64,000 nt of DNA from Maribacter vaceletii (GTDB lineage Bacteria; Bacteroidota; Bacteroidia; Flavobacteriales; Flavobacteriaceae): contig NZ_RBIQ01000007.1 in assembly GCF_003634105.1 (NCBI RefSeq), forward strand, positions 1,240,001 through 1,304,000, written 5' to 3'. Shown here piece by piece: positions 6,576 through 19,238 of this stretch (positions are counted from its first letter, which is position 1; the number at the start of each line of letters is the position of its first letter). The translations under genes and the position numbers were made by a program. The notes beneath the pieces were generated by a model, which worked only from the letters and a program-made list of their open reading frames with translations, had not been told where the DNA came from and searched no databases.

Positions 6576-6576
6576 G

Positions 6577-7050
6577 GTTCTCTTTAGCATATTTTTCTGT
6601 TGTAATACCTCTAATGTTGTTAATTATTAAATGTTCTAATAATACCATTATTTTGTGCTTCTAAGAGTAAATTATATACAGTTTTATTCACTGTTTTTTT
6701 CTAAATTTTGAAAATTCTCTATTAGCTTTAGGGTAATATTTTTGTAAGCCATATAAAAAAGAAGGACTAAAGGTTTTTAAATAATCTAACCCAACTCTAT
6801 AAATTCCTATTACAGCAAGAATTGGATTAGAATTTTCTTTTTCAATACATTTATTAATGTCAATTTCTATTTTTTCTAGAAGTAAAATAAGGCTCTCATT
6901 AACTATAGCTTCTTTACCAGAAAATTTTTTATATATAGTTTTTTTAGAGATTCCCATTTCGCGAGCAAGCTCATCTAAAGTAAATTTTTTACTTCCAAAT
7001 TTTGTAAATTTAGAAATTGCAAATTCTAAAAACTGACACTTATTTATCAT
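6577..7050 (-). pseudogene. TetR/AcrR-family regulator, C-terminus destroyed by frameshifts
   Basis: The intact part (7050 to 6688, 120 residues) has a normal TetR helix-turn-helix (LAREMGISKKTIYKKFSGKE, residues ~29-48). It stops at a TGA just after a run of seven T (6694-6700 on the plus strand), far short of the usual ~200 residues. Reading on in the next frame gives TVYNLLLEAQNNGIIR, and returning to the first frame gives LLEHLIINNIRGITTEKYAKEN; both look like the ligand-binding part of TetR proteins. At least two lesions are needed to explain this, and probably a small deletion. The gene lies 18 bases after the efflux outer-membrane gene, so it was probably the last gene and a local repressor of that operon. 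Confidence 0.7.
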
Positions 7051-7068
7051 GAATTTTATGATTAATAA

Positions 7069-8472
7069 TTAGTTCCAACCGCCACCTAAAGATCTATATA
7101 GTTCTACAGTTGCAGATAATTGCGAGAACCTATTATTTATTAAATTTAATTCTGCATTTAAAGAGTTTTCTCTTGCGGTTAAAAGGTCTAAATAGGTTAA
7201 GTAGCCACTATTTAAGAGTTCTTCAGAGTTTTTCTCAGCTCTTTTTAATGCTACAACTTGTTTGGTGACAAAAACTTCTTTTTCTGCCAAAAGATTGTAA
7301 TCATATAAAGCATCAGACACTTCTTTTCCAGCAGTTAAAAGCACTTTTTTAAAGTTTAATAAAGATTGTTCTTGTTGTGCTTGGGCTACTTCATAAGCAG
7401 TTCTTATTTTTCTACCATTAAATATAGGTTGTGTAAGTCCGCCAACTAAGTTTGCAAAAATTGAACTAGAATCTATCCAATTATCAAGCTCTAAGCTTTG
7501 CATGCCACCCTGTGCAGAAAGAGTAATAGAAGGGTAAAAATTACTTCTAGCAATATTTGTTAACTCAAAGCTATTTATTAAGTTATATTCTGCTTGTATT
7601 ATATCTGGTCTATTTCTTAATAATAGCGCAGGTATCCCAAGTTGCATTTCATTTGTTAATTTTTGGTCATCTAAAGATCCACGAGCATATGCTTGTGGTT
7701 GCTCACTTAGAAGAATACTCAAAGTATTCTCTGTCTGGTATAGTAAATTTTTAAGATCTAATAACTGACTTTGAGCACTGTATAACTGCGCTGCGGTTTG
7801 ATCTACACCAACCTGATTTTCTTGTCCTGCTTCTTTTAGAGCAGTAATAGTTTCTAAACTTTTAGAACGCGTTTCTATAGTTTCTTTAGTTACAGAAATT
7901 TGTTTATCTAAAGCTAATAATTGATAATAGGTAGTTGCTATTTGAGCTACTAAACTTGTTTTTACTGCTTTATGAGCAGCTAATGTTTGTAAGTAACTTG
8001 CATCACTAGCACGTTTTGTACTTCTTATTTTCCCCCATATATCTGCTTCCCAAGATAAAGTTCCAGACACTTCAAATTGATTGTATGGTTGTGTAAAAAG
8101 AGCACCAAACTGTCCGTTTTCACTATTTCTTGCTGTTCTTGTTGCAGAAGCAGCACCGTTTAAAGTTGGTAAATAACCAGCTTTTCCTTGTTTTACATAA
8201 GCTTGCGCTGCTGTAATATTTTGAACAGCAATACGAATATCTATGTTATTGTCTAACCCTTTTTGGATATAGGTTTTTAAATAGGAATCTGTAAATAGGT
8301 CTTTGTAAGATACTGATGCAAAAGATACACTGTCTTGTGACAGATTATCCGTTCTAAACAAATTTTCTGTTTCTACACTAGGCCTTTTGTATGTTTTTGC
8401 TGAAAAACAGGATTGTAGCAAAATTGAAAGTATGGCTACTAGTATAAGTTTATGTGATATTATTTTATTCAT
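7069..8472 (-). CDS. Outer-membrane efflux lipoprotein (TolC/OprM type)
   Basis: The exit channel of the tripartite RND pump. I start at the ATG at 8472 (467 residues), because the upstream in-frame codon at 8499 is TTG and would overlap the RND gene. This start gives a short lipoprotein signal peptide ending LLQSC, with Cys22 lipidated. Two repeated outer-membrane-efflux domains follow, rich in long helices, with the typical GYLPTLNGAAS and NFYPSITLSAQGG strand entries and LLRNRPDIIQAEYNL between them. It follows the pump gene directly and precedes the broken TetR gene. Confidence 0.95.
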   Translation of the reverse strand: MNKIISHKLILVAILSILLQSCFSAKTYKRPSVETENLFRTDNLSQDSVSFASVSYKDLFTDSYLKTYIQKGLDNNIDIRIAVQNITAAQAYVKQGKAGYLPTLNGAASATRTARNSENGQFGALFTQPYNQFEVSGTLSWEADIWGKIRSTKRASDASYLQTLAAHKAVKTSLVAQIATTYYQLLALDKQISVTKETIETRSKSLETITALKEAGQENQVGVDQTAAQLYSAQSQLLDLKNLLYQTENTLSILLSEQPQAYARGSLDDQKLTNEMQLGIPALLLRNRPDIIQAEYNLINSFELTNIARSNFYPSITLSAQGGMQSLELDNWIDSSSIFANLVGGLTQPIFNGRKIRTAYEVAQAQQEQSLLNFKKVLLTAGKEVSDALYDYNLLAEKEVFVTKQVVALKRAEKNSEELLNSGYLTYLDLLTARENSLNAELNLINNRFSQLSATVELYRSLGGGWN

Positions 8473-8479
8473 GATTTCT

Positions 8480-11400
8480 CTAATTCTTAGGTTCTTCAAT
8501 TATTTCATGCGGAGCACCAGTTATACGTTCCTGTAGTGTTTGAAATATGACATACAGAGCAGGTATTACAAATACACCGAATATAGTACCAATTAACATA
8601 CCTCCAACAGCACTCATACCAATAGATTGGTTACCAACAGCACCAATACCAGATGATAATGCCAATGGCATTAAACCAAGGATAAAAGCAAAAGAGGTCA
8701 TTAAAATTGGTCTAAGTCTAGCTTTGGCACCGTCTATAGCAGAATCTAGAATAGACATGCCATGCTTTCTACGTTGTAAAGCAAATTCTACAATAAGAAT
8801 AGCGTTTTTAGACAATAGACCAATAAGCATGATTAATGCAATTTGGAAATAGATGTTATTTTCTAATCCAGCAAAGCTTACAAAGCTAATAGCTCCTGCA
8901 ATACCAATTGGTAACGATAATAGTATTGATAATGGTAAAATATATGATTCGTACTGTGCACTTAACAAGAAATAAACGAATACCAAACTCAACATAAATA
9001 TGATGATGGTTTGGCTACCAGCACTATTTTCCTCTTTGGTAAGACCAGAATACTCATACGTGTAATTGTTAGGTAGCACTTCTGCAGTTACTTCTTCAAT
9101 AGCGGCAATAGCATCACCGGTAGAATACCCAGGGTTCATTGCACCGTTGACCTTCACAGAACTTAATAGGTTAAACCTACTAACCACCTCAGGACCATAT
9201 ATTTTTTTTAAGGATACAAATTGAGATACCGCAACTGACTCTCCATTGGCATTGGTCACAAAAATATGATTCAATGAATTTTCATCTGCTCTATCCTCAG
9301 GTTTGGCTTGAATCATTACGCGATACTGCTTACCAAATTTGTTAAAATCTGTAGTGTATAGTCCGCCATAATAACCTTGCATTGCACTAAAGACATCAGT
9401 CACGGCTAAGCCAGCCATTTTGGTTTTCTCAACATCTACTTGTAATTCATATTGTGGGAAATTAGCGTTGAAATTTGTTATGGCATATTGTACTTCTGGC
9501 CTTGCATTTAATGCAGCTAGGAATTCTCCAGTTACTTTATTTACTGTCTGCCAATCATCGGCACCTTTACTCTGTAGGTTCATTTCAAAACCGGTAGAGT
9601 TACCAAAACCTCTAACACTTGGCGGTGTAAAGAAGAATATTTTAGCATCTTTTAAACCTGCGGTTTTAGCGAAAAGACTACCTACAACTTCACTAACAGA
9701 TTCGCCTTCACCTTCTCTTTCTGCCCAGTTTTTAAGTCTAAGTACAGAGAAACCATAAGAACCACCGTTAACACTATTCAAAATACTAAAACCTGTAATG
9801 TTCATTCTAGCTTCTATAATATCCATAGATTGATAAATTGAATCTAGTTTTTTCACGGTCTTTTGCGTTTGTTCTAATGTTGTACCTGGCGGCATAGTAA
9901 CATCGGCAAAAATTAGACCTTGATCTTCATTAGGAATAAACCCTGTTGGGGTAGATCTAAATAACATCACTGCAATTGCAGCAAATAGGATAAGAGACAC
10001 CCATGTTAGCCATTTTCTTTTGGCTATGAATTTTACAGAACCAACATATTTATCTGTCATGGCATTAAAACCAGTATTAAAAGCAGAAAAGAAACGTTTT
10101 GTAATTCCTTTTTTATGTTCTTCGGATGGATTATGGGGTTTTAATAAAAGCGCTGCCAAAGCAGGACTTAACGTTAATGCATTCACTGCGGAAATTAGAA
10201 TCGCGATTGCTAATGTAATACCAAATTGTTGGTAAAATACTCCAGAGGAACCACTAATAAATGACACAGGAATAAATACAGCAGACATTACCAAGGTAAT
10301 TGAGATAATTGCTCCTGAAATTTCTGACATAGCAGATTTTGTTGCCTTTTTTGCATTAGTTGCGCCTTCTTCCATTTTGGCATGTACGGCTTCAACTACT
10401 ACAATAGCATCATCGACCACAATACCAATGGCTAAAATCATTGCAAATAATGTTAGCATGTTAATGGAGTACCCAAATAAGGATAAGAAAAAGAATGTAC
10501 CAACAATAGCCACAGGTACTGCAATAGCAGGAATCAATGTAGATCTAAAATCTTGTAAGAATATGAATACTACTAAGAAAACTAATAAAAAAGCTTCAAT
10601 TAAAGTCTGTACTACATGATCAATAGAAGCACTCAAGAAATCTTTAGTATTATAGGGAATTACATAATCTAATCCTTTTGGGAAATCGGTCTTACTATCT
10701 TCAAGTATCGTTTGTATTTCATCAATAATAGCATTTGCATTAGATCCAGAAGTTTGAAAGATCCCAACAGCAGTGCCTGGTTTACCCATACCTTCGTTCT
10801 TCGTACCATAATTAAAAGCACCTAATTCTATTTCGGCTACATCTTTAAGTCTTAAAAACTGTCCGTTTTCTTGCGCTCTAATGATAATGTCTTCATATTC
10901 TGCTTCTTCAGCAAGGCGACCTTTATACTTTAGTACATACTCATATACACCATCTGCATTTTCTCCAATTTTACCAGTTGCAGCTTCTAGGTTTTGTTCG
11001 TTTAATGCTGCTTGTATATCTGAAGGCATTAATTTGTAAGCAGCCATTTTTTCAGGGTTAAGCCATATACGCATAGAATAGTCTTTTGCGCCAAAAACAG
11101 TTACATTCCCCACGCCTTCAATACGTTGTAATTTTGGTACGATGTTAATTCTTGCATAGTTTTCTACAAACGTGGCATCGTATTCATCATTATCAGAGAA
11201 TAATGAGAAGAAAAGTAACGCACTAGTTTGTGATTTTTGTGTAATAACCCCTGTTTGTACAACCGTTTGTGGCAATACACTGTTTGCTCTTGCAACTCTA
11301 TTCTGTACGTTTACCGCAGCAATATCTGGATCTGTGCCTAATTTAAAAAATACATTTATAGTAGAAGCACCGTCGTTACTCGCGTTAGAGGTCATGTACA

Positions 11401-11626
11401 ACATGTTTTCTACACCATTAATCTGTTCCTCTAACGGAATAACAACACTATTTAATACAGTTTCTGCATTTGCACCAGTATATGTACTCGTAACCTGTAC
11501 TGTTGGAGGTGCTATTTCTGGATATTGTTCTACGGGTAAGGTGGTTAAACCTAATACACCTAGAATAACTATGATAATCGATATAACCGTAGATAATACG
11601 GGACGATCTATAAACCTTTGAAACAT
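8480..11626 (-). CDS. RND multidrug efflux permease (AcrB/MexB-like, HAE-1)
   Basis: An inner-membrane proton antiporter that pumps drugs, detergents or dyes from the periplasm. The 1048 residues match the family. It begins MFQRFIDRPVLSTVISI, the usual HAE-1 first helix. AIGIVVDDAIVVVEA carries the paired Asp of TM4 and IGLLSKNAILIVEFA carries the TM10 Lys of the proton relay. Two large periplasmic loops follow TM1 and TM7. It sits between the adaptor and outer-membrane genes, all on the minus strand with short gaps, forming one operon. The substrate range cannot be read from the sequence. Confidence 0.97.
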   Translation of the reverse strand: MFQRFIDRPVLSTVISIIIVILGVLGLTTLPVEQYPEIAPPTVQVTSTYTGANAETVLNSVVIPLEEQINGVENMLYMTSNASNDGASTINVFFKLGTDPDIAAVNVQNRVARANSVLPQTVVQTGVITQKSQTSALLFFSLFSDNDEYDATFVENYARINIVPKLQRIEGVGNVTVFGAKDYSMRIWLNPEKMAAYKLMPSDIQAALNEQNLEAATGKIGENADGVYEYVLKYKGRLAEEAEYEDIIIRAQENGQFLRLKDVAEIELGAFNYGTKNEGMGKPGTAVGIFQTSGSNANAIIDEIQTILEDSKTDFPKGLDYVIPYNTKDFLSASIDHVVQTLIEAFLLVFLVVFIFLQDFRSTLIPAIAVPVAIVGTFFFLSLFGYSINMLTLFAMILAIGIVVDDAIVVVEAVHAKMEEGATNAKKATKSAMSEISGAIISITLVMSAVFIPVSFISGSSGVFYQQFGITLAIAILISAVNALTLSPALAALLLKPHNPSEEHKKGITKRFFSAFNTGFNAMTDKYVGSVKFIAKRKWLTWVSLILFAAIAVMLFRSTPTGFIPNEDQGLIFADVTMPPGTTLEQTQKTVKKLDSIYQSMDIIEARMNITGFSILNSVNGGSYGFSVLRLKNWAEREGEGESVSEVVGSLFAKTAGLKDAKIFFFTPPSVRGFGNSTGFEMNLQSKGADDWQTVNKVTGEFLAALNARPEVQYAITNFNANFPQYELQVDVEKTKMAGLAVTDVFSAMQGYYGGLYTTDFNKFGKQYRVMIQAKPEDRADENSLNHIFVTNANGESVAVSQFVSLKKIYGPEVVSRFNLLSSVKVNGAMNPGYSTGDAIAAIEEVTAEVLPNNYTYEYSGLTKEENSAGSQTIIIFMLSLVFVYFLLSAQYESYILPLSILLSLPIGIAGAISFVSFAGLENNIYFQIALIMLIGLLSKNAILIVEFALQRRKHGMSILDSAIDGAKARLRPILMTSFAFILGLMPLALSSGIGAVGNQSIGMSAVGGMLIGTIFGVFVIPALYVIFQTLQERITGAPHEIIEEPKN

Positions 11627-11663: not shown

Positions 11664-12752
11664 TTAGGGCTTGGTTGGATTAATAACCGTACCGTCTTTT
11701 AATTTGGAAACACCTTCCAGAACTATTGTAGTTCCTTCATTTATGCCCTTTTCTACTATATATCCTTTTTGAGTTGTAGTAATGATATTTAAAGGCAATG
11801 TTGTTACTGTGTTGTCTTCTTTTAGCACATATACCAACTTTTTACCCTGTAAGTCAATTGTAGCTACTTGCGGTATTTCATATGCATCTTTATATACAGT
11901 AGGTATTTTAATTTTTCCTGTACTACCACTACTTAGTAAGTTATTTTCATTATTAAAATCTGCTCTAGCAGTAACACTACCAGTAGTGCTATTAATAATA
12001 GTATTTATCATAGCAATTTTACCATATTCAGGATAATCTTTACCATTAACCATAACAAGAGTTACTTCTGGAGCTTTATTAACGTCCATAACATTGTTAT
12101 TGTTTTTAGGCATAGATTCTTTTAATTTCAATAGCTCTTTTTCGTTCATTGAAAAATAGGCACGTACTTGACTAATGTCTGATACCGTTGTTAATGGCTG
12201 TGTCATTGTAGAACTTACTAATGCTCCAATTTTAAATGGAATTTCGCCAATATAACCATCTACTGGGCTTGTAATTCTTGAATAATTAATAGTAGAAGCC
12301 ACACTTTCATAACTGGCTTTAGCTTGTTCTAAATTTGCTTTAGCTGTCTCTAATTGTACATCACTAATAATACCTTTTTCAACTAATGGTTTAAGTTTAT
12401 TAACTTCAACTTGTGCAACATTTACAGATGCTTTAGCAGCATTTGCATCTTGATTTAAAGTTTGAGTTTCTAATTTAAAAAGTAGCTGTCCTTTTTTAAT
12501 TTTTTGACCTTCTTCTACATAAACTTCTTGTACAAAGCCAGATACTTTTGGCCATATTTCTACATTTTGTTTACCTTCTAAAATTGTAGAAAACTCAGTA
12601 TACACTGTAATGTCTTCTTTATTTAATTTCGCCACACTTAAACTAGGTGCTGGCGGAGCTGTTGCAGTTGTATTTTGTGTTGGCGTTTTTGAAAAGCAAG
12701 AGCTTAATAATAAAGCGATGCTTAAAAGTCCTATAATTGATAACTTTTTCAT
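11664..12752 (-). CDS. RND efflux periplasmic adaptor lipoprotein
   Basis: The membrane-fusion subunit (AcrA/MexA type, 362 residues) linking pump and outer-membrane channel. The lipoprotein signal ends LLLSSCF with Cys19 lipidated. A split lipoyl domain (VSGFVQEVYVEEGQKIKKGQ and ITSPVDGYIGEIPFKIGA) flanks a helical hairpin of about residues 97-150. Beta-barrel and membrane-proximal domains follow. It is the first gene of the pump operon. An 18-bp inverted repeat upstream (12812-12829) is shared with the promoter of the GbsR/MarR regulator. Confidence 0.95.
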   Translation of the reverse strand: MKKLSIIGLLSIALLLSSCFSKTPTQNTTATAPPAPSLSVAKLNKEDITVYTEFSTILEGKQNVEIWPKVSGFVQEVYVEEGQKIKKGQLLFKLETQTLNQDANAAKASVNVAQVEVNKLKPLVEKGIISDVQLETAKANLEQAKASYESVASTINYSRITSPVDGYIGEIPFKIGALVSSTMTQPLTTVSDISQVRAYFSMNEKELLKLKESMPKNNNNVMDVNKAPEVTLVMVNGKDYPEYGKIAMINTIINSTTGSVTARADFNNENNLLSSGSTGKIKIPTVYKDAYEIPQVATIDLQGKKLVYVLKEDNTVTTLPLNIITTTQKGYIVEKGINEGTTIVLEGVSKLKDGTVINPTKP

Positions 12753-12811
12753 TTTGAATGGATGTTTTGATTTAATGTTTTCCTTTTGTTAAAGCATTGT
12801 TAATTCGTAAT

Positions 12812-12829
12812 GTTCGGTAAAAAACGAAC
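12812..12829 (-). promoter_or_regulatory. Candidate efflux operator, copy 1
   Basis: On the plus strand this is GTTCGGTAAAAAACGAAC, a GTTCG-N8-CGAAC inverted repeat about 68 bases upstream of the adaptor start. A TTTG that could serve as the -33 element on the minus strand directly abuts it (12830-12833). It aligns without gaps to the sequence at 13366-13383, so it is probably the binding site of the neighbouring GbsR/MarR protein. Confidence 0.6.
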
Positions 12830-12854
12830 CAAATTATTAAAAAAATAGTAATAA

Positions 12855-13331
12855 CTATATCTTCTTTAATTTATTAATTGAATCTTTAAAAACTTCTTTA
12901 TTATTTTTTAAGCATGTTAAATAAATATTTTTCATTTCTTCATCTTCATTATACCTTTCTGGGTTATGTTTTTTAAAATAGTCTTGTACTTTATTAACTA
13001 TAAAAGTTTCTTTCTCTAATTTATTTAATTCTTTATTTAATTTTTTAATAAAAAAGGAGCCTTTTACAGCAATTTTAAAATACCTTTTTCGGTCACCAGA
13101 TTTGGTAAAATAATTAATAAAACCTATTTGTAATAATAAATTTAATGCTGTTGAAATAGAACTTTTACTTGCACCTCTTTTTACCTTACAATCATCAAAT
13201 GTTAAGCCTGTTTCCTCAGTTATTACCAAGTTTGCAAAAATCCTTGCTGCTAAGGGGGGTAAAGAATATTCAGACTCAAAATGGATACCCATTTCTTCAA
13301 TTAAAGCTCTTTTTTCTTCTTCTTTATCCAT
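12855..13331 (-). CDS. GbsR/MarR-family transcriptional regulator
   Basis: A 158-residue winged-helix regulator. SLPPLAARIFANLVITEETG matches the start of GbsR-type MarR proteins. CKVKRGASKSSISTALNLLL (about 48-67) is the recognition helix region, followed by a wing (YFTKSGDRKRYFKI). The C-terminal half is a helical dimerisation arm. It lies directly upstream of the RND operon on the same strand, and both its own promoter and that of the adaptor gene carry the same 18-bp inverted repeat. It is therefore probably the pump's autoregulated repressor. The ligand is unknown. Confidence 0.88.
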   Translation of the reverse strand: MDKEEEKRALIEEMGIHFESEYSLPPLAARIFANLVITEETGLTFDDCKVKRGASKSSISTALNLLLQIGFINYFTKSGDRKRYFKIAVKGSFFIKKLNKELNKLEKETFIVNKVQDYFKKHNPERYNEDEEMKNIYLTCLKNNKEVFKDSINKLKKI

Positions 13332-13351
13332 AATTCTAAATAATTATAGTA

Positions 13352-13383
13352 CAAATATATGATTGGTTCTGTATAAAACAAAC
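13352..13383 (-). promoter_or_regulatory. Regulator promoter with overlapping operator, copy 2
   Basis: On the minus strand TTG (13379-13381), 19 bases, then TATATTTG (13352-13359): a textbook Bacteroidetes promoter with a 20-base leader to the GbsR/MarR ATG. The inverted repeat GTTCTGTATAAAACAAAC (plus strand, 13366-13383) covers the -33 box and most of the spacer, so binding there would block RNA polymerase. Confidence 0.7.
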
Positions 13384-13424
13384 TAAAAGAACTTAAGTTT
13401 TTGTTAAAAAATAAAATTTTAGAT

Positions 13425-14949: not shown

Positions 14950-16809
14950 TTACCCTTTTACATTCTCTTTAACCCAAGCTAAACATTCATCAAACGTGGT
15001 AAAAATATGTTCTTTAGGTATTAGGTCAGGAATAATATCTATACGCTCCATCATGTATTTAGGTTGTTTTAAAACATCAATCAATAAAACGGTTATATTA
15101 GAATTTTCTAAGTCTATTAATACGTCTTCCATGGCATACAAACCAGACTGATCCATGTATGGCATTTTACCCATTCTTATAATTACCGCTTCTGCAGTAT
15201 TAGGAATTTGAGAAGCCATTTGTTGAAACTCACTTGTAGAACCAAAGAATAGGGGTCCTTTAAGATGCTTAATAAAAACTTCTTCTTTTAGTTCTTGAGG
15301 GAAATTTTTCTCATCTGCCCATGCTTTTTCTTCAGAAAGAGTTTTTACATCAGAACGTTCTGCAGTAAGATCTCCAATTTTTTTCATGAACATTAGAGAT
15401 GCAATTACTAAACCAACGCCTACTGCATATACTAAATTCCATACCGAAGAAAGCACTAATACTACAAGCATAATTAAAACTTCTGAACTTAATTTTAAAG
15501 GTCCAAGTTTAATATCTCTAGGTAAACTTGGAATAGCCTTTAATCCTTTATAATCCATTACTCCAATACCTACGGTAACTAATATTCCTGCAAGTACTGC
15601 TGCTGGTATTTGTGATGCTACAGGCGCTAGAGCAAGCATTACAACTAGTAGCATAATACTAGCTACCATACCTGATAGTTTTGTTTTACCCCCCGCTTTA
15701 ATATTTACCACAGTACGTATAGTTGCACCCGCACCAGGGATTCCTCCAAAAATGGCTGCAATACTGTTGCCAATACCTTGACCAATTAATTCTTTATTTG
15801 GTTTATGTTTTGTTTTGGTCATATTATCTGCAACTACCGATGTTAATAAGGAGTCAATTGAGCCTAATAAAGCTAAAGTAAGAGCAGTAAAGATATAGGG
15901 AGAAATAGAACCGATTTCAAAATTGGTAAATATGCCTAGATTAGGCATTGGAAATCCAGACGGAATTTCATCTATGGACCTATATTCTAATTTGAAACCA
16001 TAGGCAATACCAGAGACAATTAATAAAGCAACAAGTGTACTAGGAATAACTGTTGTTATGCGTTTAAACCCGTATATAATAAGTATGGTTGCTAGTGCTA
16101 AACCTAGCTCTAACCAATTTATATTTTGTAATGCCCGGCCAATAACTTTTAGTGTTCCTAAAACACCAGAAGCTTCTTTTTTAGCCAAGGTCTGTGACTC
16201 TTTTAGAATATCATCTTTGGTTATTTTTTCAGCTCTTTTAATAGTTTCTTTAAAATCTTCTAATACCAATATATTTTCGGCAGCTTCTTCTTTTAGAATA
16301 TTTTCTAAAATAACTTCCTCTGCCTGTGCTTTAAAACCATTTACATAGTCGGTATCCTCTTTAGGATAATAGCCTACAGCTGGGAGTATTTGGGTAACTA
16401 ATATAATTACGCCAATAGCTGTCATAAAGCCAGATACAACAGGATAAGGAATGTATCTAATATATTTTCCGATACCCAATAAACCTAGTCCAACTTGCAT
16501 TAATCCGGCTAAGAAAAATATAATTAGAATGGCAGGTAATGCTTTTTCTATAACACCATCGTTCATAGCAATTATACCTGCAATAACAACCATACTAACT
16601 GCAGTCATAGGGGCAGTTGGCCCAGATATTTGTGTGCTTGTACCTCCAAATAAAGCAGCAAAAAAGCTTATAAAAATAGCACCGTATAAACCAGCACTTG
16701 GTCCTAGACCAGAAGAAACACCAAATGCTAAGGCTAGTGGTAATGCTACAATACCGGCAGTTATACCACCAAAAAGGTCTCCTTTTATGTTAGAGAATAA
16801 ATTTTTCAT
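14950..16809 (-). CDS. SulP-family anion transporter with STAS domain
   Basis: An inner-membrane anion transporter of 619 residues. It starts with the SulP N-terminus (DLFGGITAGIVALPLALAFG) and has the conserved GGIPGAGATIRTVVNIKAGG repeat region and a cytoplasmic STAS domain at about 505-619 (PYMDQSGLYAMEDVL). A charged, predicted helical insert of ~85 residues (about 150-237) lies between membrane segments and is unusual for the family. The upstream carbonic anhydrase suggests bicarbonate as substrate, as for BicA-type SulPs, though sulfate is possible. A terminator separates it from the carbonic anhydrase gene, so it may have its own promoter. Confidence 0.93.
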   Translation of the reverse strand: MKNLFSNIKGDLFGGITAGIVALPLALAFGVSSGLGPSAGLYGAIFISFFAALFGGTSTQISGPTAPMTAVSMVVIAGIIAMNDGVIEKALPAILIIFFLAGLMQVGLGLLGIGKYIRYIPYPVVSGFMTAIGVIILVTQILPAVGYYPKEDTDYVNGFKAQAEEVILENILKEEAAENILVLEDFKETIKRAEKITKDDILKESQTLAKKEASGVLGTLKVIGRALQNINWLELGLALATILIIYGFKRITTVIPSTLVALLIVSGIAYGFKLEYRSIDEIPSGFPMPNLGIFTNFEIGSISPYIFTALTLALLGSIDSLLTSVVADNMTKTKHKPNKELIGQGIGNSIAAIFGGIPGAGATIRTVVNIKAGGKTKLSGMVASIMLLVVMLALAPVASQIPAAVLAGILVTVGIGVMDYKGLKAIPSLPRDIKLGPLKLSSEVLIMLVVLVLSSVWNLVYAVGVGLVIASLMFMKKIGDLTAERSDVKTLSEEKAWADEKNFPQELKEEVFIKHLKGPLFFGSTSEFQQMASQIPNTAEAVIIRMGKMPYMDQSGLYAMEDVLIDLENSNITVLLIDVLKQPKYMMERIDIIPDLIPKEHIFTTFDECLAWVKENVKG

Positions 16810-16921
16810 GTAAAGGTTAAATTTATATGTAATTATAGATTCTAAAAATTTAGTTAAGGAGAGTTTTCTTTATAAAAAATAAAGTTATTTATTTTTTGTG
16901 TATAAAACTTCATGTAATAGA

Positions 16922-16956
16922 CAAAAAAAGAGTCTTGATTTTATACCAAGACTCTT
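16922..16956 (-). terminator. Terminator after carbonic anhydrase
   Basis: A 10-bp perfect stem (AAGAGTCTTG with its complement, 9-base loop), followed on the minus strand by six or seven T. It ends the carbonic anhydrase transcript 28 bases after its stop. Confidence 0.88.
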
Positions 16957-16983
16957 ACTATATACTATTTGTAGTATTAATGA

Positions 16984-17610
16984 TTAATAAAAATCTACAC
17001 TACCCGTAGAAACATTGTACATAGCTCCTACAATTTTTATTTCACCCTGTTCTTCCATTTCGGCTAAAATTTTACTTCTTTCTCTAATGTTCTCAATTGT
17101 TATATGAACATTTTTTTCAGAAACGGCATTTACAAATTCTAAATTTTTAGAATTTCTTATGCTTTCATCTTTTGGTTCTTGAACGGCAGCAACAGCTGGC
17201 TCAATCTTGTTTATTAACGCTGTAAGATTTCCCATTCTTGCATGGTCACAAGCACCTTTTATAGCACCACAACTTGTATGGCCTAAAACAACAATTAGTT
17301 TTGTTCCTGCAAGTTTACTTGCGAACTCCATACTTCCTAAAATATCTTCGTTAACAAAGTTTCCTGCAATTCTAATACTAAAAATATCACCAAGACCTTG
17401 ATCAAAAACTAGCTCGGCAGACACTCGTGAATCTATACAACTTAAAATAGTAGCAAATGGAAATTGTCCTTCACTAGTATCATTCACTTGTTCTAGTAAA
17501 TTTCTGTTTGCTTTTAAATTATTTACAAACCTTTTATTTCCCTCTTTTAAAAAATCAAGAGCTTTTATAGGGTTCATGGTTGCTTGTGTTTCTTTTGTAT
17601 GTGCTTTCAT
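16984..17610 (-). CDS. Beta-class carbonic anhydrase
   Basis: Interconverts CO2 and bicarbonate. The 208-residue protein has the beta-class zinc site: Cys58 in LSCIDSR with the Asp60-Arg62 dyad, then His111 and Cys114 in GHTSCGA. GNFVNEDILGSMEFA lies between them as usual. There is no signal peptide, so it is cytoplasmic. It lies 29 bases after one SulP transporter gene and upstream of another on the same strand, an arrangement that points to bicarbonate uptake or CO2 retention. Activity type (type I-like site) is inferred from the motifs. Confidence 0.95.
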   Translation of the reverse strand: MKAHTKETQATMNPIKALDFLKEGNKRFVNNLKANRNLLEQVNDTSEGQFPFATILSCIDSRVSAELVFDQGLGDIFSIRIAGNFVNEDILGSMEFASKLAGTKLIVVLGHTSCGAIKGACDHARMGNLTALINKIEPAVAAVQEPKDESIRNSKNLEFVNAVSEKNVHITIENIRERSKILAEMEEQGEIKIVGAMYNVSTGSVDFY

Positions 17611-17639
17611 ATGTTATTTACTTTTCTATTAAAAATGGT

Positions 17640-19238
17640 TTAGCTTAAGCTAGTATTTGATTTTGGTCTTAGTTTAAAAAACTCAATAAAGCTATCTGGG
17701 TTTTCAACAGTGCCTCGTTTTGAAATTAACTTAATATCAATATTTCTTTCTTTAGCTTTAAATGCAAAATCTTCTAAGATTTCTATAATATCGTTATCTA
17801 AATATCTAGTTTGCCTTACATCTAATTCTAAATAGGTATTTTCTGGCAAACTATCTAGCTCTTTTAAGATAGCTCCTTTGTTAAAAAAAGTAACTTCTTC
17901 TGCAAGGGTCATTTTAATTTTACCATCATCAAGATTTTCACCTTCTTTATGTAAGAAGTGTGAGTTTTGAAAGTTTTTAAGTAGAATAATAAAAATACCT
18001 ACTGCTAAACCTAAGCCAATACCCAATAATAAATCTCCAGTAATAACCATTGGTAATACCGTTGCCATAAATGGTACAAACTGCTTCCAACCTAACTTGT
18101 ACATATTTACAAAAGTAGATGGCTTTGCTAATTTAAATCCAACTATAAATAATACTGCTGCAAGTACAGCTAAAGGTATTTGATTAAGTAATGTAGGAAT
18201 TAAAAGAACAGATACTATTAATAATAATCCGTGAATAATTGCAGATAATTTAGTTCTTCCTCCAGATTGTATATTTGCAGAACTTCTTACAATTACCTGA
18301 GTTATTGGTAAACCTCCTATTAAACCAGAAACGATGTTTCCTGTTCCTTGAGCAAATAATTCTCTGTTAGTTGGGGTTACATTTTTATGCGGGTCTAACT
18401 TATCTGTAGCTTCTACACATAGTAAAGTTTCTAATGAAGCAACTAAAGCTATAGTAAATGCAGTAATCCAAACTTCCGTATTTGCTATGGCTGCAAAATT
18501 TGGAAAAGTTATTTGCTCTTTAATGGCATCTATGCTTCCTGGTACTTTTACAAGTTGATCTATGGCTAATTCTAATGAACCTCCTTGCGTTACTACATAA
18601 AATATAATACCAAAAACAACTGCTACTAATGGCCCTTGTACTAATTGAAATATTTTTCCTTTTTTAGAAAGTACATTAGACCATAAAAGCAATATTCCTA
18701 ATGCAATTATACCAACTACGGTTGCACCAATACTTATGTTGCCGCTTATTAGGGCATTAATAGCTTTTAAAAGTCCAGATATTAAATTATCCCATTCTAC
18801 TTGTAGAAGATCAAAGTTACCTTTGGGATTTTTACCCATTCCAAAAAAATAGGGAATTTGTTTTAGAATAATAATTATTCCAATACCTGTAAGCATTCCT
18901 TTAATTACAGAGGAAGGAAAGAAATACCCAATAATACCTAATCGTAATACACCAAATAGAATTTGAATAGCTCCACCAAGTACTACAGCTACTAAGAAGT
19001 TTTCATAGCCTAAGGAGGTAATTGCCACTAATACAATTGCGGCTAAACCTGCAGCAGGACCACTTACTCCAATTTTAGACCCACTTATTGCACCAACAAC
19101 AATACCACCAATAATACCAGCAATTAATCCTGAAAAAAGTGGTGCTCCACTGGCTAAGGCAATACCTAAACATAAAGGTAGTGCAACAAAAAATACGACA
19201 ATACTAGCTGGTAAGTCTTTTTTTAAATGTTTAAACAT
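17640..19238 (-). CDS. SulP-family transporter linked to carbonic anhydrase
   Basis: A 532-residue inner-membrane transporter. The N-terminus (DLPASIVVFFVALPLCLGIALASGAP) and GLIGGLPITQVIVRSSANIQ are SulP hallmarks. A C-terminal STAS-like domain covers about 430-525 (LELDVRQTRYLDNDIIEIL). The carbonic anhydrase gene follows after 29 bases, so the pair is probably one transcript handling bicarbonate. This family is often annotated as a sulfate permease, but the context favours bicarbonate. A 15-bp palindrome lies just upstream of the start. Confidence 0.93.
   Translation of the reverse strand: MFKHLKKDLPASIVVFFVALPLCLGIALASGAPLFSGLIAGIIGGIVVGAISGSKIGVSGPAAGLAAIVLVAITSLGYENFLVAVVLGGAIQILFGVLRLGIIGYFFPSSVIKGMLTGIGIIIILKQIPYFFGMGKNPKGNFDLLQVEWDNLISGLLKAINALISGNISIGATVVGIIALGILLLWSNVLSKKGKIFQLVQGPLVAVVFGIIFYVVTQGGSLELAIDQLVKVPGSIDAIKEQITFPNFAAIANTEVWITAFTIALVASLETLLCVEATDKLDPHKNVTPTNRELFAQGTGNIVSGLIGGLPITQVIVRSSANIQSGGRTKLSAIIHGLLLIVSVLLIPTLLNQIPLAVLAAVLFIVGFKLAKPSTFVNMYKLGWKQFVPFMATVLPMVITGDLLLGIGLGLAVGIFIILLKNFQNSHFLHKEGENLDDGKIKMTLAEEVTFFNKGAILKELDSLPENTYLELDVRQTRYLDNDIIEILEDFAFKAKERNIDIKLISKRGTVENPDSFIEFFKLRPKSNTSLS

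Follow-up and report, generated by a model that had tools for sequence, protein, structure and literature searches.

A predicted GbsR-type autorepressor of an RND efflux operon in Maribacter vaceletii, with probable operators at its own promoter and in the pump leader

Introduction

In Maribacter vaceletii, a gene for a GbsR/MarR-type regulator precedes the genes of an RND efflux pump, and two similar 18-bp sites occur in this locus, one upstream of the regulator gene and one between it and the pump genes. This arrangement raises the question of whether both sites are operators of the adjacent regulator and how they could act on the pump genes. MexR (mexAB-oprM) and EmrR/MprA (emrRAB) are local MarR-type autorepressors of multidrug pumps, and EmrR, like the regulator considered here, is encoded by the first gene of its operon. 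In contrast to our regulator, MexR and EmrR/MprA belong to another MarR subfamily and have another operator; the present locus also differs from theirs in the second operator predicted between the regulator and pump genes. We analyzed the locus in the window (the whole stretch of 64,000 nucleotides) and compared it with homologous loci of Flavobacteriaceae.

Results

Gene content of the locus

The minus strand of the window carries the whole series of regulator, adaptor, permease and outer membrane factor genes, with a gap of 102 bp between the regulator and the adaptor:

12855..13331, minus strand: GbsR/MarR-type regulator of 158 aa, presumed autorepressor
11664..12752, minus strand: RND periplasmic adaptor (TIGR01730, RND_mfp)
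8480..11626, minus strand: RND permease (TIGR00915, HAE1/AcrB type)
7069..8499, minus strand: outer membrane factor (TIGR01845, NodT type)

A TetR-type gene of 120 aa stands at the operon end (6576-7050, minus strand, with the TetR-like remnant at 6688-7050); it is truncated, has its continuation broken by frame changes and stops, and looks like a decaying remnant. Elsewhere in the window (14950-19238), a beta carbonic anhydrase gene located between two SulP-type transporters forms an apparent bicarbonate-uptake cluster.

Two candidate operators in the window

The two sites were found where the sequence-only reading had placed them, as GTTCGGTAAAAAACGAAC (12812-12829) and GTTCTGTATAAAACAAAC (13366-13383), and are identical in 14 of 18 positions. 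On the strand of the regulator gene they read as follows:

13366..13383, minus strand: op1 (operator 1), GTTTGTTTTATACAGAAC, covering the -33/spacer region in the promoter of the regulator
12812..12829, minus strand: op2 (operator 2), GTTCGTTTTTTACCGAAC, between the regulator stop codon and the adaptor start codon

Their earlier description as inverted repeats holds in part, as 6/9 and 5/9 pairs are symmetric and neither site is a full palindrome. Using the consensus derived from the two sites, a scan of the 3.89-Mb genome returned these two sites only at zero mismatches, and the single one-mismatch match sits within a gene. No further targets of the regulon were found elsewhere in the genome, the inspected next-best sites all being located inside coding sequences. 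Dinucleotide-preserving shuffles of the two spacers gave a best ungapped 18-mer match of at least 14/18 in 132 of 200 trials, and therefore the 14/18 match, taken from the window alone, is not beyond chance; an alternative pairing within the real spacers reaches 15/18.

Conservation of the operator among regulator homologues

Of 397 sampled Flavobacteriaceae genomes, 141 contain homologues of the regulator. From this family, 92 homologous regulator genes and their upstream DNA were extracted. A search of the 150 bp upstream of each gene for GTTCG-N8-CGAAC gave an exact best match in 62 of the 92 loci. The other loci comprise 19 with one mismatch, 9 with two and 2 with three, whereas shuffles of the same 92 upstream sequences are expected to give 0 exact, 0.2 one-mismatch, 2.1 two-mismatch and 17.7 three-mismatch sites. 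The op1 position and register are kept in the 90 homologues with at most two mismatches. An alignment of 78 sites from outside the clade of the window yields a logo comprising TTTAACAAAA, TTTA and TTAGTTCGGT-N4-ACCGAACTAA-N3-TAnnTTTG, in which the half-sites carry 1.2-2 bits compared with 0.1-0.5 bits in most flanks and the TAnnTTTG -7 box stands at a fixed offset from the operator. The consensus proposed from the two window sites is thus recovered as a degenerate form of the family operator TTAGTTCGGT-N4-ACCGAACTAA, which has a nearly invariant GTTC-N10-GAAC core. The window op1 is among the weaker sites of the set, having two mismatches and neither half-site intact beyond GAAC. Both sites in the window are very probably docking sites of the regulator, given that the same mirror-image site precedes almost all of the 92 related regulator genes.

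The ASKS[ST]xS recognition-helix region is near-invariant among the homologues, as expected for a near-invariant operator. In a search for covariation between operator and recognition helix, both sides varied too little for comparison, and the symmetric GTTCAG..CTGAAC sites of L026 and L029 have no obvious partner change in the recognition helix. The site is also retained next to adaptors in another family of the same order, and more distant members of the phylum have GTTC-N10-GAAC at the promoters of homologues for which no adaptor was found.

Linkage of the operator to the regulator gene

The regulator adjoins an RND adaptor gene, located just downstream, in 85 of the 92 loci, and most of the remaining seven homologues keep a recognizable operator at their own promoter, the operators of L038 and L098 being degenerate. 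Among 29 adaptor paralogues of the genus without the regulator, no site within one mismatch was detected in 1 kb upstream. By these comparisons the operator follows the regulator gene and not the pump. The pump-less regulator paralogues L091, L098 and L100 possess a second operator between the regulator and the next gene, which in L091 and L100 encodes a META-domain lipoprotein. In L038 and L086 no pump follows the homologue; the next gene has a mechanosensitive-channel (MscS) domain, which was checked in L038.

Assignment of the regulator to the GbsR-type MarR proteins

The AlphaFold model of the regulator (pLDDT 89) matches Mj223 (PDB 1ku9) over its full length, with Z 13.5 over 151 residues and a Foldseek E of 3.8e-8. 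At 20% identity, Mj223 is the best full-length structural match, tied with 5jbr and 4nb5, and a profile comparison also links the two proteins (E 6.2e-9 over 149 residues). The model has a winged helix and a C-terminal helical region as in Mj223. The NCBIfam CudC model matches all 51 relatives (best 5.5e-11), the window protein scoring 26.6 bits, which is far below the equivalog cut-off of 218. Pfam MarR_2 matches 33 of the 51 aligned relatives; the window regulator alone gave no Pfam family match. Assignment of the regulator to the GbsR-type MarR proteins is supported by its predicted fold. An aromatic cage for choline or glycine betaine as inducer belongs to the osmoprotectant branch of this subfamily.

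Unlike the window regulator, Mj223 is archaeal; it is the template for modelling GbsR-type proteins (PMC6207618). Mj223-fold models, such as that of our regulator, also describe GbsR, OpcR and OpuAR of Bacillus, which are repressors of transport or solute genes (PMC7396694, PMC6207618). GbsR of B. subtilis is a roadblock at gbsAB, downstream of the start site, and OpcR overlaps the -35 (PMC7396694). The operators of these Bacillus proteins are AT-rich, that of GbsR at gbsAB having a 4-bp spacer, in contrast to GTTCG-N8-CGAAC here, and their targets are compatible-solute genes instead of RND pumps. The GbsR-type proteins CioR and CydE of cytochrome bd operons resemble the case predicted here in that the regulator gene is inside the operon it represses, CioR being a repressor of its own operon (PMC11837568); their target is an oxidase and not a pump.

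The regulator promoter and op1

The promoter TTTG-N19-TATATTTG, which had been proposed over op1, is indeed present on the minus strand (13382-13352), and its -7 box conforms to TAnnTTTG, which mapping in Flavobacterium psychrophilum identified as the sigma-A -7 consensus (PMC9723704). The elements of this region are:

13352..13359, minus strand: -7 promoter box TATATTTG of the regulator gene
13379..13382, minus strand: -33-like TTTG within the left op1 half-site, where GTTCG has become GTTTG in the clade of the window
13399..13408, minus strand: conserved upstream element TTTAACAAAA, 16-24 bp before op1

In all 12 loci of the window's clade, position 4 of op1 is T and not C, giving GTTT, and in most of them, including the window, this change yields TTTG 19 bp before the -7 box. 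Across the family, position 4 of the left half-site deviates in 14 of 90 sites, compared with 1 of 90 for the mirror position on the right; this imbalance is consistent with a promoter element on the left side. TTTG-N19-TAnnTTTG occurs 61 times in the genome versus 48 times in a reversed control; since this excess is only slight, the case for GTTTG as a functional -33 box is weak.

The upstream element TTTAACAAAA, followed by TTTA, is mostly 69-88% conserved per position in the 78 more distant homologues. It was considered as a general promoter element and rejected, its genome count of 15 versus 8 in the control being an excess of only about twofold; a site for a second factor and an upstream promoter element are both possibilities.

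The second operator before the pump genes

An exact GTTCG-N8-CGAAC, located 15-25 bp past the regulator stop codon, constitutes op2 in 12 of 12 loci, which are the window and its 11 nearest relatives. These 12 loci form one clade (support 95/90), and op2 is absent from the other adaptor-linked loci of the 92-homologue set. The distance between op1 and op2 is constant (548-554 bp); it was set aside as evidence for looping, given that gene length fixes most of it. Downstream of op2 the leader contains a further conserved segment:

12787..12806, minus strand: conserved leader segment GAATTAACAATGCTTTAACA after op2, with clade consensus GAATTAACAAAACCTTAACA

The 20 bases of GAATTAACAAAACCTTAACA are nearly unchanged in most of the 11 relatives (L010-L018, L039 and L040) and less so in the window.

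Alternative explanations for the two sites

According to the sequence-only reading, op2 abuts a -33-like TTTG of the adaptor gene, so that the repressor would occlude two separate promoters, one of them belonging to the adaptor. Such an adaptor promoter could account for the long regulator-adaptor spacer (72-105 bp in all 12 op2 loci), and in L091, L098 and L100 a -7-like box does lie between the second operator and the next gene. The TTTG does exist just before op2 in the window, but it is not conserved in the other loci, and TAnnTTTG is missing at the right distance in 12 of 12 clade loci; with one exception, the -7 position after op2 is occupied by a conserved AATTAACA, and the adaptor promoter is therefore unsupported. 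Thus, op2 probably does not provide a separate adaptor promoter with its -33 region, and we consider the two-promoter version unlikely. As no TAnnTTTG follows op2, we infer that a roadblock or a looping operator is likelier than a second promoter. An RNA element in the pump leader, either a hairpin or an attenuator, would be another way to explain op2, for GUUCG/CGAAC can make a 5-bp stem and a 46-nt piece folds at z -1.7. However, the full spacer folds no better than its shuffles (z -0.34), there is no Rfam match, and op2 is the same in sequence as the operator of the regulator promoter, a site located upstream of the predicted transcript; this explanation is very improbable.

It is even harder to credit the sites to another regulator, whether an unlinked factor or the TetR-like gene at the operon end. 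TetR proteins also use palindromic operators of about this length and the remnant is nearby, but it is disrupted as described above, and across 92 loci, pump-less ones included, the site accompanies the GbsR-type gene, and it is absent at the adaptor paralogues. Chance likeness in AT-rich spacers, for which the shuffles speak with their success in two thirds of trials, has next to no probability left: each of the 11 nearest relatives, at 58-67% protein identity, conserves both sites in the corresponding positions, and by this comparison the chance explanation is already refuted.

Discussion

Proposed regulation of the efflux operon

The reading that we prefer, and hold to be highly probable as a whole, is that the predicted autorepressor occludes its own promoter at op1 and also binds the pump leader at op2. 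It is based on the conservation of the sites, their promoter register, their linkage to the regulator gene and the predicted fold; binding, repression, the roadblock and the ligand are the conjectural steps. The regulator would repress its own operon, consisting of the regulator, adaptor, permease and outer membrane factor genes. A regulator dimer is expected to bind the 18-bp operator, which across the family takes the form TTAGTTCGGT-N4-ACCGAACTAA. Since op1 overlaps the -33/spacer region, the bound regulator would block RNA polymerase. In the clade of the window, drift of the left half-site to GTTTG may have weakened that half-site while providing the TTTG for an improved -33 box, and op2, whose half-sites are intact, lies between the regulator and pump genes. 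Most likely, op2 would act on transcripts begun at the regulator promoter, serving as a roadblock like that of B. subtilis GbsR at gbsAB or as a looping partner. A ligand, probably a substrate of the pump, would release the regulator.

An autoregulated repressor with operators before itself and the pump, as had been suggested from the window, is strongly supported by the phylogenetic footprinting and the GbsR/MarR fold predicted for the regulator. That suggestion is right in its core, though the evidence first given could not carry it. Adjacency of regulator and pump (85 of 92 loci) and a palindromic operator over the regulator promoter are both found here, as in the MexR/EmrR-like arrangement, and the system belongs to an established type, that of local MarR-type repressors of RND pumps. 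The operator code appears to be undescribed, and no GbsR-type regulator linked to efflux in flavobacteria was found in the open-access literature.

Extension to other Bacteroidota

According to a 2018 survey of GbsR-type proteins, those of Bacteroidetes have no consistent gene neighbourhood (PMC6207618), in contrast to our set, where 85 of 92 homologues stand before an RND adaptor with one defined operator; on this account, both the function and the binding site become predictable for a large group of uncharacterized regulators. With about even chances of being correct, a broader proposal is that the GbsR-type regulators of Bacteroidota share one operator code (TTAGTTCGGT-N4-ACCGAACTAA in Flavobacteriaceae and the GTTC-N10-GAAC core deeper), used in Flavobacteriaceae mostly for RND pumps, and that one clade uses both promoter occlusion and a roadblock inside the operon, having given up half of its promoter operator in favour of an improved -33 box and acquired a second operator before the pump genes. 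This two-operator clade offers a natural comparison of promoter occlusion and roadblock by the same protein.

Distribution of the locus within the genus

Seven other genomes sampled from the genus lack the regulator (G001-G007, the window genome being G000), and the nearest adaptor in them is only 45% identical; for these reasons the pump locus looks either acquired or widely lost.
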